From the IMG/VR virus record IMGVR_UViG_3300007515_000003, positions 34,824 through 98,823 of that record: a DNA stretch of 64,000 nt. The stretch is one strand, 5' to 3'. The notes under the pieces were generated by a model. That model did no database searches. It worked only from the letters and a program-made list of their open reading frames with translations, and was not told where the DNA came from. The translations under genes were made by a program, and so were the position numbers. Of this stretch, positions 3,609-53,617 are shown piece after piece (positions within the stretch are counted from its first letter, which is position 1; each line of letters opens with the position of its first letter). The DNA is from a virus.

Positions 3609-3838
3609 TGTTAAAAAGATTCTTTTTTCAAACTCTTTTACGAACTCGCTACTTTGTGGGCTTTTCAAAGGTGAAATACTTTTGGAGCTTAAAATCTGCC
3701 GAGGACTTCGCAAGAAATTGCAAAGATCTTGGAAAAACAACTGTCTGGCGTAAAGATCACAAAAGAATGTTTACTCACAACAATCTTGTCGATTACTCAC
3801 TCCACGAGGACGCAAAAAACTTTTCAACCTATCACTAA
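3608..3838 (+). CDS. Hypothetical basic protein
   Basis: Protein of 76 aa (MLKRFFFQTLLRTRYFVGF...). The start overlaps the previous stop (TAATG). Basic, aromatic N-terminus; no domain recognised. Confidence 0.7.
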   Translation: MLKRFFFQTLLRTRYFVGFSKVKYFWSLKSAEDFARNCKDLGKTTVWRKDHKRMFTHNNLVDYSLHEDAKNFSTYH

Positions 3839-6895: not shown

Positions 6896-7045
6896 ATGAA
6901 AAACGGAATAAGTCTCACCAAAAAGGAACTTCAAGAAATCATCGACCAAAATGTCGGTGACGCAAACGAGGGTTGTGTTCAGTCTCAACAGATTGTTGTC
7001 CACGCCCAATGGCTATTGGATAGGATTGCCAACCAATGGGGATGA
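6896..7045 (+). CDS. Small hypothetical protein overlapping an RNA element
   Basis: A 49 aa frame (MKNGISLTKKELQEIID...QWG). Its TGA stop lies inside the first stem of the tmRNA-like element at 7038-7110, so gene end and RNA 5' end share bases. Function unknown. Confidence 0.6.
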   Translation: MKNGISLTKKELQEIIDQNVGDANEGCVQSQQIVVHAQWLLDRIANQWG

Positions 7046-7110
7046 TTGGATTCGATTTGCACTGCTTCATCGGGGCAAAGACTGCGGTTCAACTCCGCAC
7101 ATCTCCACCA
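7038..7110 (+). ncRNA. Mini tmRNA-like (tRNA-like domain only) RNA
   Basis: The 73-base element starts GGGGATGATTGGATTCGA and ends GGTTCAACTCCGCA, CATCTCC, ACCA. The ends pair as a 7-bp acceptor stem with a G3-U70 wobble, the alanine identity mark of tRNA-Ala and tmRNA. TGCGG/CCGCA forms a T arm with loop TTCAACT, and TTTGC/GCAAA closes a central hairpin. The GGATTCGA box is typical of tmRNA 5' ends. There is no anticodon arm and no tag frame. It thus looks like the tRNA-like domain of tmRNA without its mRNA part. It could be a decoy or a vestigial attachment site. Confidence 0.65.
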
Positions 7111-9030: not shown

Positions 9031-9749
9031 GAGTTTATCCCTTCCTGTACGAATCCTGTCTCATCCTTTTTTGCCATACCCTTTTCGATAAGCCCGACAA
9101 TAACGCCTTGCTTGTCACGGAAACGCAAATCACTTTCATCGCCATTGATAACTTCGTGACCTTTCCAAGTTTTAGGTAACCTATCACGGAAAACCACGGC
9201 GACATTTCCACCCATTTGCAAAACCATATCGCAAAGCGTATCGTTATGCTCTGAGCGAGAAAAAGTCAAATGATAGTTGCTCGGAAAATCCTTAGCTTGA
9301 TTGACGAACTTTGCCATGCGTTGAAACGACTTGGTATAATCATAAAATTGCGTTTCGGGAAACTTTTGCATAAGCGTTTGACCATTTGCATCTTCAATGT
9401 TTTCCCATTCCAAATCGCTTGTGAGATTAGGGCGAAAAACCGCAGTCATTTCTTTCTTAACTGCTGACTTAATGCCTGAAGCAATTTCCTTTGCGAGCTT
9501 TTCCATGAACGCAAGCTTTTGTTCAAAGAATAACTTTGTCTTGGCAATGCGAGAGTCTTGGATTTTGTCCATTCGTCCACGACCAGCAGTATTCAAGCAA
9601 GCCATCGTGCAACCTTTGCTTCTCCATTGGCAAGCTTCGTACCCCGAAAGATTTGCTGGAGCAAGATGAATGCCCTTAGTCATGAAGCCAAAAGCTTCGC
9701 CTTTTACGATTTTGGCATTTCCTGCCGTGAGTAGAGTTGTCTTAATCAT
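9027..9749 (-). CDS. GP88-like phage protein
   Basis: Protein of 240 aa (MIKTTLLTAGNAKIVKGEAFG...). The N-terminal pattern LTAGNAKI, HLAPANLSG, then C-x8-C-x4-C resembles the 'gene product 88' family of phages, in which cysteines follow a GN-K motif. The family has no proven activity; the cysteines suggest metal or cluster binding. Start fixed by a leaderless promoter. It overlaps the next small gene by four bases. Confidence 0.65.
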   Translation of the reverse strand: MIKTTLLTAGNAKIVKGEAFGFMTKGIHLAPANLSGYEACQWRSKGCTMACLNTAGRGRMDKIQDSRIAKTKLFFEQKLAFMEKLAKEIASGIKSAVKKEMTAVFRPNLTSDLEWENIEDANGQTLMQKFPETQFYDYTKSFQRMAKFVNQAKDFPSNYHLTFSRSEHNDTLCDMVLQMGGNVAVVFRDRLPKTWKGHEVINGDESDLRFRDKQGVIVGLIEKGMAKKDETGFVQEGINS

Positions 9750-9755
9750 GCCTTA

Positions 9756-9784
9756 ATACTATCTTAATTCTGCTTTCTTGTCAA
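9756..9784 (-). promoter_or_regulatory. Early promoter, leaderless type
   Basis: Leftward TTGACA, 17 bases, TAGTAT, 6 bases, ATG at 9749. It lies inside the 3' end of the preceding gene. Confidence 0.8.
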
Positions 9785-9911
9785 CAATTTTCTTTGCTTT
9801 TTCAATTCCTTTTTCCATGCCGAACTGAGAAACCAAGCGTTTGAAAGTTTCCCAAGCAATCGTATTCTCGGGAAGCTTTTTCCATTCTTTCATTCTTTCT
9901 TTACTATTCAT
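9759..9911 (-). CDS. Small basic protein
   Basis: A 50 aa frame (MNSKERMKEWKKLPENTIAW...). Lysine-rich and helical. It has its own leaderless promoter and its last codons encode the next promoter. Unknown function. Confidence 0.65.
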   Translation of the reverse strand: MNSKERMKEWKKLPENTIAWETFKRLVSQFGMEKGIEKAKKIVDKKAELR

Positions 9912-9917
9912 GCCTTA

Positions 9918-9946
9918 ATTATGGCAGATTCTAGGGGCAAAGTCAA
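9918..9946 (-). promoter_or_regulatory. Early promoter, leaderless type
   Basis: Leftward TTGACT, 17 bases, CATAAT, 6 bases, ATG at 9911; A-tract upstream. Confidence 0.8.
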
Positions 9947-9991
9947 GCCTTTTTTTAAAATAAAATCAAAAGAAATCTAAACCCCTCTAGA

Positions 9992-10041
9992 CCAAGGACT
10001 TACGGACCGGCGGGGAGGCCGCCCGGGCCGTAACTCGTTGA
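9992..10041. repeat. Stem-loop repeat, copy 10
   Basis: Left arm CCAAGGACTTACGG, right arm CGTAACTCGTTGA, core CCGGCGGGGAGGCCGCCCGG. It follows the leftward membrane peptide ending at 10045. Confidence 0.85.
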
Positions 10042-10044
10042 TAC

Positions 10045-10134
10045 TCAGCTACCTACAGCGTGCACATAAACGCACAGGCTAGTATAAGTAGCAAAGGCAA
10101 CTGCTATAAATATATATAATAGTCTATTTGTCAT
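10045..10134 (-). CDS. Membrane micropeptide at operon end
   Basis: A 29 aa frame (MTNRLLYIFIAVAFATYTSL...), one hydrophobic segment, overlapping the previous gene's end and placed directly before the stem-loop at 9992-10041. Confidence 0.55.
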   Translation of the reverse strand: MTNRLLYIFIAVAFATYTSLCVYVHAVGS

Positions 10135-10309
10135 CACATTGCTTGTTGAGCTTGACAACTTTAAGCACCTTCTTAAAGGCTTCTTGCACTCCGTCAAGAA
10201 ACTCCTTGCTTCCCATTTCTGGATAAACATGGTTGATGTCGTTAGGATCGTAGACATTCAAGACATCTAAGATGACCTCGAAATCTTTTTTGTTTAGTGA
10301 TGTATACAT
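10124..10309 (-). CDS. Hypothetical protein
   Basis: Protein of 61 aa (MYTSLNKKDFEVILDVLNVY...). Helical with a basic C-terminus. In a leftward operon with the genes at 10314 and 10430. No family recognised. Confidence 0.7.
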   Translation of the reverse strand: MYTSLNKKDFEVILDVLNVYDPNDINHVYPEMGSKEFLDGVQEAFKKVLKVVKLNKQCDDK

Positions 10310-10313
10310 AATT

Positions 10314-10430
10314 CTATAATTCTTCTACCCACCAATAGCCTTCGCACTTAGTGAGAATGGTATCAATTCCGTTTTGTTGCTTCATGTAGACAAATTGCCT
10401 CGCATGGTGTTCGTGAATAAACTTATACAT
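10314..10430 (-). CDS. Small aromatic protein
   Basis: A 38 aa frame (MYKFIHEHHARQFVYMKQQN...EGYWWVEEL). Starts in a TAATG overlap with the preceding gene, which supports translation. Histidine- and aromatic-rich; function unknown. Confidence 0.6.
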   Translation of the reverse strand: MYKFIHEHHARQFVYMKQQNGIDTILTKCEGYWWVEEL

Positions 10431-10771
10431 TAAAAGTCTGCTCCATAGGTTTCTTGCTCTCCAAAGCAACCGTAATCTTCGTCAGTCCCGAATCCTGCGG
10501 AAGTCATGGCAGAATCAAAATCTCCATCCATACTTTCGTCGATATCTCTTTCGTCGTTGATGTGCCATTGCTCAACCTCTTCACAAGAAATCATCTTGCC
10601 GTGCCAATCGTAAACGGCAAATTGGATTCCAAGATTAAGGTATTCGCCAGTTTGATTAGCCTCATCTATCAGGACTTCTGCTCGCATATAAGCTTGCTCA
10701 AGACCTTCACGATTTTTGTTCCAGAAATAGTCAAGCGTTTCATTTACAATTACTTCATATCTTTTTATCAT
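10430..10771 (-). CDS. Hypothetical acidic protein
   Basis: Protein of 113 aa (MIKRYEVIVNETLDYFW...). The N-terminal IKRYEVIVNET resembles DpnD/PcfM-type small proteins; the C-terminus is very acidic (DIDESMDGDFD). First gene of a leftward operon with a leaderless promoter. Function unknown. Confidence 0.75.
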   Translation of the reverse strand: MIKRYEVIVNETLDYFWNKNREGLEQAYMRAEVLIDEANQTGEYLNLGIQFAVYDWHGKMISCEEVEQWHINDERDIDESMDGDFDSAMTSAGFGTDEDYGCFGEQETYGADF

Positions 10772-15889: not shown

Positions 15890-16165
15890 TTAATATTGGT
15901 AACCGTATTCTCGTTGCAATTCATCAAAATAATTATATGAGTTATGTCTATTACAATTATATATAAATGATTCTAAATCTTTTACTTTCTTCTTAGCCTT
16001 TAGTGGATATCTTCTCCTCAGTAGAGATTTGATTTCTTCCCTTGTTGTTTTTATTTTATTCAATTGGTGAAAAGGCATCTCGCCTTCAAACTCCCAATCT
16101 AGAATGTCGTTATCGAGGTCAATCAAGAATCCTTCAACCATTTCAGTTTCGTTTTCGTATTTCAT
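15890..16165 (-). CDS. Hypothetical protein
   Basis: Protein of 91 aa (MKYENETEMVEGFLIDLDND...). Central basic stretch SLLRRRYPLKAKKKVKD. Operon with the genes on both sides (2-base gap, 1-base overlap). No family recognised. Confidence 0.75.
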   Translation of the reverse strand: MKYENETEMVEGFLIDLDNDILDWEFEGEMPFHQLNKIKTTREEIKSLLRRRYPLKAKKKVKDLESFIYNCNRHNSYNYFDELQREYGYQY

Positions 16166-16440
16166 TACAACATCGGGTTGCCAGAGTCAAGCTCGACACC
16201 CAGTACTGATTTTAATTTACGAAATGATTCGGACTTAATGAAGACCTGCCTAACATAGTCTTCTCCGCTATCTTCCACAACCTTAATGCGTCCTGCGACA
16301 TACATCGCACGGCAAGCCTCTCTTGGTTTTCCACCCCATTGGATGATGAGTTCTGTTTTAGGGAAGTATTCTGCGAGTTCAGCACATTGCTCCGCAGTAA
16401 CAAATCCCCATTGTTCAATGATTTCTTTTAGCAATTTCAT
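16165..16440 (-). CDS. Hypothetical protein, possible winged-helix fold
   Basis: Protein of 91 aa (MKLLKEIIEQWGFVTAEQCA...). The arrangement GFVTAEQCAELAEYF, REACRAMYVAGRIKVVEDSG resembles a small helix-turn-helix or winged-helix DNA-binding domain; this is a weak structural guess. First gene of an operon with the HhH protein, under a leaderless promoter. Confidence 0.7.
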   Translation of the reverse strand: MKLLKEIIEQWGFVTAEQCAELAEYFPKTELIIQWGGKPREACRAMYVAGRIKVVEDSGEDYVRQVFIKSESFRKLKSVLGVELDSGNPML

Positions 16441-16477: not shown

Positions 16478-16503
16478 AAAAAAACCTCCCCTTTTCGGGG
16501 AGG
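16478..16503 (-). terminator. Strong intrinsic terminator of the large non-coding unit
   Basis: CCTCCCC and GGGGAGG pair perfectly around a 5-base loop; leftward the stem is followed by seven T. Confidence 0.9.
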
Positions 16504-17167
16504 CTTTTAGAAGAGGCTTTTATGTAGTTACCTCAATGGTGATGATAGTGACCAGAGTCAATAAACTCCGCTACATTACCCAGTACGACGAGAAGGGACG
16601 CACAAAAATTGGAGTCGGTCTTACGAACTCCGAAGCCCGAATTATATTCACGATGCAGAGTTATGCCGACATAAAATAGATGGGGGATGGAAAGTTGGTA
16701 CTCCACCAACATTAACTATTTGCTTGGGTTATGCGACCTTCCGAAGAAGAATGAGACACGACTTCTCAGCCTTTACTCACAACTTGGGGCAGACTATTAT
16801 AATAGTTTCTGAGTTAATCCCAAGTACCTTTGCCGTCCACCACAGACTTACCTTAAAATCCCTTTTCCCACTTGGGCGTTAGAACTCCATCGGCGTGTAA
16901 ACCATCGCTCACGACAAATTGCAATCACGCACATAGCAATGTGCCAGTCATAAGGTCTGGCGACCCAATCCTCCGTCATTTGACTTTGGACTCCCTCGGG
17001 AGAGGTGATGACTATTGCACTTGCAGGGCATCTACATACCCTGTTTACAAGTTTCCCCGTAGGAATCTCCGTCGAGCTTCCTAAAGACTAAAATATTAAA
17101 GAACAAAAAATACCTGTGGGTTTTTCCTTTCGGTTATCGAGAACCCACTAAACTCGATTTTGATTAT
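16478..17167 (-). ncRNA. Large (~690 nt) structured non-coding RNA
   Basis: A promoter at 17174-17202 and the terminator at 16478-16503 delimit a leftward unit with no open frame of 60 codons or more on that strand. Structure is visible throughout. Near the 5' end is an H-type pseudoknot: ATCGAG (17158-17153) with CTCGAT (17141-17136), and GTGGGTT (17148-17142) with AACCCAC (17122-17116). Later come the nested hairpin at 17052-17019 (ACTTG/CAAGT, CAGGG/CCCTG), GCACAT/ATGTGC at 16944-16929, CCCAAGT/ACTTGGG closing 16876-16819, a C(UUCG)G tetraloop hairpin at 16749-16738, and GTTGGT/ACCAAC at 16710-16694. It matches no RNA I know by sight. Large phage RNAs such as GOLLD and ROOL are candidates for comparison. 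Confidence 0.75.
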
Positions 17168-17173
17168 GTAATA

Positions 17174-17202
17174 ATAATACTATATATTTGATTAAAAGTC
17201 AA
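17174..17202 (-). promoter_or_regulatory. Promoter of the large non-coding RNA
   Basis: Leftward TTGACT, 17 bases, TATTAT. It overlaps the stop codon of the preceding gene. Confidence 0.8.

Positions 17203-53241: not shown

Positions 53242-53617
<376 letters not shown>

Follow-up and report, generated by a model that had tools for sequence, protein, structure and literature searches.

A candidate freestanding manA-family RNA gene in a phage, with an apparent boxA leader

What does a phage genome encode in a stretch that is bounded by a promoter and a terminator and yet holds no gene of 60 codons? This question is raised by a locus on the minus strand of a 64-kb segment of viral DNA (64,000 nt of IMG/VR record IMGVR_UViG_3300007515_000003; the whole segment is hereafter called the window). 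For this locus the original prediction was that of a large structured RNA unit, which would be a new RNA or a divergent version of a known class. Our analysis supported that proposal, and the class is most likely a diverged manA (RF01745). We read window positions 17202-16478 (-) as a self-contained gene of a marine phage for a large folded noncoding RNA, and consider the locus to be best explained as a freestanding gene for a manA-family noncoding RNA of the phage, with a probability of roughly two in three. The features of the unit and its neighbors are collected in Table 1.

Table 1. Features of the candidate RNA gene and flanking frames (window coordinates).
Feature	Position	Strand	Basis or remarks
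Freestanding ncRNA gene	17202-16478	-	Promoter, H-type pseudoknot, boxA-like site, core, 3' element, terminator
Upstream small ORF, 65 aa	17199..17396	-	Similar small gene upstream in L003, L061 and L224, by reading
Sigma-70 promoter TTGACT-17-TATTAT	17174..17202	-	Sequence; conserved in relatives
Leader H-type pseudoknot AUCGAG/CUCGAU + GUGGGUU/AACCCAC	17116..17158	-	Sequence; compensatory changes in relatives
boxA-like antitermination site TGTTCTTTAATATTTT	17090..17105	-	Sole exact copy within the window
Putative expanded, diverged manA core	16673..17087	-	manA 8-mers, profile alignment
manA P1 hairpin GGAA-GCUCGACGGAGA-UUCC	17062..17081	-	Usual short distance 3' of boxA
Module X	16611..16671	-	Immediately 3' of manA core; 92% identical to L229 counterpart
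3' pseudoknotted element GGUAAUGUAGCG-P1-UGGUCA..UCAUCACC-P2-GUAACUACAUAAAAGC-P2'	16513..16580	-	69 distinct instances
Intrinsic terminator AAAAGCCTCCCC-GAAAA-GGGGAGGTTTTTTT	16478..16508	-	12-pair stem + U tail
Downstream 91-aa ORF	16165..16440	-	In synteny with the RNA in most relatives; without a Pfam match

As predicted, the leftward strand is free of 60-codon frames (the longest has 59 aa), and on the other strand of the unit there are two frames of 70-71 aa, both with TTG starts. The comparison that had been proposed as a possible refutation came out on the side of an RNA: the relatives described below covary and differ by indels and inserted modules, and a conserved protein frame was not apparent among them. 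Folding energy was not used as an argument, since the window RNA was only mildly more stable than shuffled sequences (z -2.1) and the opposite strand scored equally. When the window RNA or the unit of a relative was compared by BLASTN with 50,697 phage records, no match was returned, and an Rfam cmscan with the window RNA gave nothing convincing at E<=10, with weak matches to the terminator hairpin only. The model search suggested at the outset likewise found no match in the window RNA, and GOLLD, ROOL, OLE, HEARO and group I introns were rejected as its identity (no Rfam covariance model match at E<=10). An identical copy of the locus was found in a 211-kb IMG/VR contig; the expanded-core variant is therefore known from only one distinct sequence.

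Both predicted ends of the unit were recovered. The promoter is present at the expected place, in a 50-bp block that is approximately 75-97% identical in many relatives, and the strong terminator was found as a 12-bp stem followed by a U tail. An automated terminator scan did not call the latter, probably because the U tail partly pairs into the stem.

Relatives of the locus were reached through the 91-aa gene and a RIIA-like protein, and comprised approximately 50 large marine phage contigs. In the first of them, the slot immediately upstream of the 91-aa gene held an Rfam manA (88 bits), and manA scored above gathering in 12 of the 17 first related contigs (G002 included), with the same 91-aa gene adjoining it in most relatives. 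Further copies were collected with a clade model; a loose manA pattern produced mostly chance matches and also 12 genuine manA. In an alignment of 40 copies from relatives, 97.5% of cells were paired and 28 of 58 pairs had changed on both sides, giving a covariation of 0.335 versus 0.163 in shuffled alignments, a signal that collapsed in slid controls. These 40 relatives share a constant layout of promoter, leader hairpin, boxA, 5-210 nt, manA, 20-200 nt and terminator. A sigma-70 promoter was recognized in approximately 37 of them and an intrinsic terminator in no fewer than 34, the number called by a simple rule, to which inspection by eye adds at least one. The 5' UTR position expected of manA was thus not what we found, the window and most of the 40 relatives having their own promoter and terminator. 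Moreover, two contigs (G009 and G010) carry the intact unit at another genomic site, before other genes, which indicates that we are dealing with a unit, as opposed to a leader that belongs to the 91-aa gene. With boxA, promoter and terminator around it, manA in this phage group is best read as an independent RNA gene and not as a 5' UTR switch. Between boxA and manA, we also observed a recurrent hairpin module (AACAATGAGTCGATAGCTGAGTATCGGACATTGACTCGTT; L036 1600-1660, L060 1080-1135, and upstream of manA in L159) and, in an insert at L205 10730-10760, a hairpin resembling a tRNA T arm (TTAGGGGTTCGATTCCTCTAA).

The 5' end of the transcript is marked by a leader hairpin, (A)UUGAG..CUCAA(U), that recurs in most of the 40 relatives. 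In the window and approximately 10 relatives its loop base-pairs with a stretch that lies 5' of boxA, which gives the H-type pseudoknot that had been predicted from the window; compensatory changes across these relatives agree with it, the second helix occurring as GAGGC/GCCTC, GGGGC/GCCCC, GGAT/ATCC, GGGC/GCCC, GGGGT/ACCCC and GTGGGTT/AACCCAC. A generic leader pseudoknot score was not above shuffles across the relatives overall, and our claim is restricted to the conserved hairpin-anchored form. The boxA sequence TCTTTWANATTTT was matched at 12 or more of 13 positions in 38 of 40 relatives versus 2% of shuffled upstream regions, and exact boxA words usually occurred once per 10-22 kb locus, immediately before manA. 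In G011, which is without manA, the exact TTCTTTAA word was absent from the expected place. The window unit thus bears an apparent antitermination leader of the boxA/nut type at the 5' end of an untranslated transcript.

The core that follows is approximately 415 nt long, versus approximately 215 nt for manA in relatives. It did not reach the RF01745 gathering score of 55.2 bits, with no match at E<=10, and it went undetected by covariance models built from 11 and 40 clade manA copies (R1 and R2) with filters off. Nonetheless, 17 manA 8-mers fall within it. The average for 420 nt is 1.5, and the count elsewhere in the window stayed at or below 8 on either strand, so that the core stands out as its only peak. 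Profile alignment of the core to manA gave z values of 2-3.9, each half scoring above nearly all shuffles. The manA words follow one another at manA positions 11, 93, 47, 165, 59, 75 and 200, which amounts to two colinear series that overlap. The P1 loop is of the manA type (UCGACGGAG); such UCGACGG-type loops are common to eight clade manA and the isolated cyanophages S-CREM1 and P-SSM2. Regarding the smaller elements of the original prediction, the GCACAU hairpin (16944-16929) and the UUCG tetraloop hairpin (16749-16738) are present, and the 7-bp long-range pairing could not be identified unambiguously. The long-range pseudoknot that closes the manA core, UGUGGG/CCCACA, is invariant in 39 distinct relatives; its counterpart in the window could only be GGGGA/UCCCC (17058-17054 with 16687-16683). 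Since the 8-mer cluster is densest here and its words are partly out of order, the core is probably a manA that has expanded or become partly duplicated.

Together with the negative model searches, the same disorder of words means that the core could instead be a replaced domain, with a different or distantly related RNA domain substituted for manA within the cassette of promoter, boxA, module X and 3' element. Module X is found directly after manA in L229, and its strong conservation beside a core that covariance models cannot recognize would fit recombination better than slow drift. We nevertheless hold replacement to be unlikely, given the unique 8-mer peak, the P1 hairpin with its UCGACGGAG loop at canonical spacing from boxA, and the copy-A words 11, 93 and 165, which stand at spacings of +0 and +24.

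Downstream of module X, the 3' pseudoknotted element has a distribution of its own. The contigs of viruses that contain its pattern number 89, and among 84,980 species genomes of bacteria and archaea there are 3. The usual place of the element is immediately 3' of an open frame, and a terminator followed it in 16% of cases versus 1.2% at random positions (14 times commoner). The pseudoknot helix UGYRR/YYRCA was fully complementary in 67 of 69 distinct copies (shuffles: mean 36, maximum 45), a comparison in which the search pattern fixes part of the 3' strand and the copies are mutually related. GGC was paired exclusively with GCC, and P2 occurred in 56 different sequences. No Rfam match for this GGY...CAUAAAAGC element was obtained in the window RNA or in four carrier loci, and the element appears to constitute a separate phage RNA family that had not been described. 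One contig (L197) carries it in tandem, at 3709 and 3835 (-), and in unrelated phages (L189 and L194) it stands immediately before strong terminators.

Among isolated cyanophages, manA was detected in three of the eight scanned (S-CREM1, S-SSM7, and P-SSM2). In S-CREM1, manA begins 2 nt after a tRNA-Leu and ends at a tRNA-Asn, and in S-SSM7 it has its own promoter and a tRNA-Gly directly 3' of it; both arrangements are compatible with a processed RNA. In P-SSM2, manA also has its own promoter, and purL begins 16 nt after its end, an arrangement that fits the published cis-regulatory reading as well (PMC2864571). A single array in S-CREM1 (9745-10567; L287 946-1768) interleaves wcaG, manA and an abiF-like RNA with tRNAs, and because of this interleaving wcaG may also be an RNA gene and not a leader.

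These arrangements bear on the main rival account, a cis-regulatory riboswitch or attenuator in which manA would sense a metabolite and set terminator read-through into the 91-aa gene. Rfam classes manA as Cis-reg, Weinberg et al. place it before metabolic genes (PMC2864571), the 91-aa gene lies downstream in most relatives, and the position of purL in P-SSM2 is what such a switch would predict. On the other hand, a sensor for the next gene fits poorly with the variable distances, the terminators and the mobile position of the unit. Whole modules are inserted in the 20-200 nt between manA and the terminator, many downstream genes seemingly have their own TTGACA promoter past the terminator (by reading), and the unit stands before other genes in G009 and G010. 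In addition, manA adjoins tRNAs in S-CREM1 and S-SSM7, and boxA antitermination would defeat an attenuator. We therefore regard a riboswitch at this locus as doubtful. Finally, a decayed, non-functional remnant of a manA cassette losing constraint after an insertion would account for a core that is diverged, enlarged and below covariance model detection, but it is highly improbable when promoter, leader pseudoknot, boxA, module X, 3' element and terminator are intact and conserved and the window RNA folds somewhat more stably than shuffles.

How might a freestanding manA gene work? A host-type RNA polymerase would transcribe the unit from the sigma-70 promoter. In rRNA operons, boxA recruits NusB and S10 (NusE) and permits the transcription of untranslated RNA (PMC4807359). 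Host NusB and S10 could read the phage boxA in the same manner, helped by the leader hairpin, which would keep the polymerase elongating through a long, untranslated and Rho-sensitive RNA and may aid co-transcriptional folding. The manA core would have doubled in length, probably by internal duplication and drift, and the independently mobile 3' pseudoknotted element probably serves to shield the 3' end or to bind a partner. Once released, the product would be a stable structural RNA that acts in trans while infection proceeds, its most likely target being translation, through the ribosome, a tRNA or an RNA-binding protein; the combination of boxA, promoter, terminator and tRNA linkage argues for such a stable trans-acting RNA. 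We give slightly better than even odds to the general statement that manA sequences are genes for stable trans-acting phage noncoding RNAs, antiterminated by boxA, linked to tRNAs in cyanophages and not riboswitches, with the 3' element as a further undescribed phage RNA family. Since 2010, manA has stood as an orphan among riboswitch candidates. As an RNA gene in its own right in these phages, a reading backed by two isolated cyanophages, it would call for the search of a trans partner instead of a ligand. Two further gains from the locus are a noncoding RNA of phage origin whose leader is apparently of the boxA antitermination kind, and a pseudoknotted RNA element, present in dozens of phages, that seems not to have been described before.

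Other RNAs were observed elsewhere in the window. A full-length phage-encoded tmRNA lies at 53242-53617 (-), with the tag ANNIVRFEDFTACGEELALAA, and the same phage has four tRNAs besides it. At 7038-7110 (+), a 73-nt sequence scored 56 bits across the full tmRNA model; it has tmRNA-like 5' and 3' ends, a T arm and a CCA end, with no room for a tag region, and is possibly a minimal tmRNA-like tRNA or a decoy.

Compared with known systems, the 3' element GGY...CAUAAAAGC is shared by the 3' regions of phage genes that are unrelated, in some cases ahead of a terminator, and matches no known family. GOLLD and ROOL (PMC12286853) are likewise large phage-encoded structured RNAs often found near tRNAs, but neither a sequence nor a model match links them to the window unit, whose core would be manA-derived. 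The leader resembles rRNA leaders and the lambda nut site (boxB-boxA) in that a long untranslated RNA has, at its 5' end, a hairpin and then a boxA of the TGnTCTTTAAnA type; it differs in serving a phage noncoding RNA and in a hairpin that is often an H-type pseudoknot. The closest resemblance is to manA itself (RF01745; Weinberg et al. 2010, PMC2864571), which is present in bona fide form, with strong covariation, in the cassettes of relatives, and whose P1 with a UCGACGG loop and many words recur in the window core. In contrast to the published manA, which is located in 5' UTRs, the window core is approximately twice as long and below model detection, and its unit is freestanding, with a boxA leader and a terminator.
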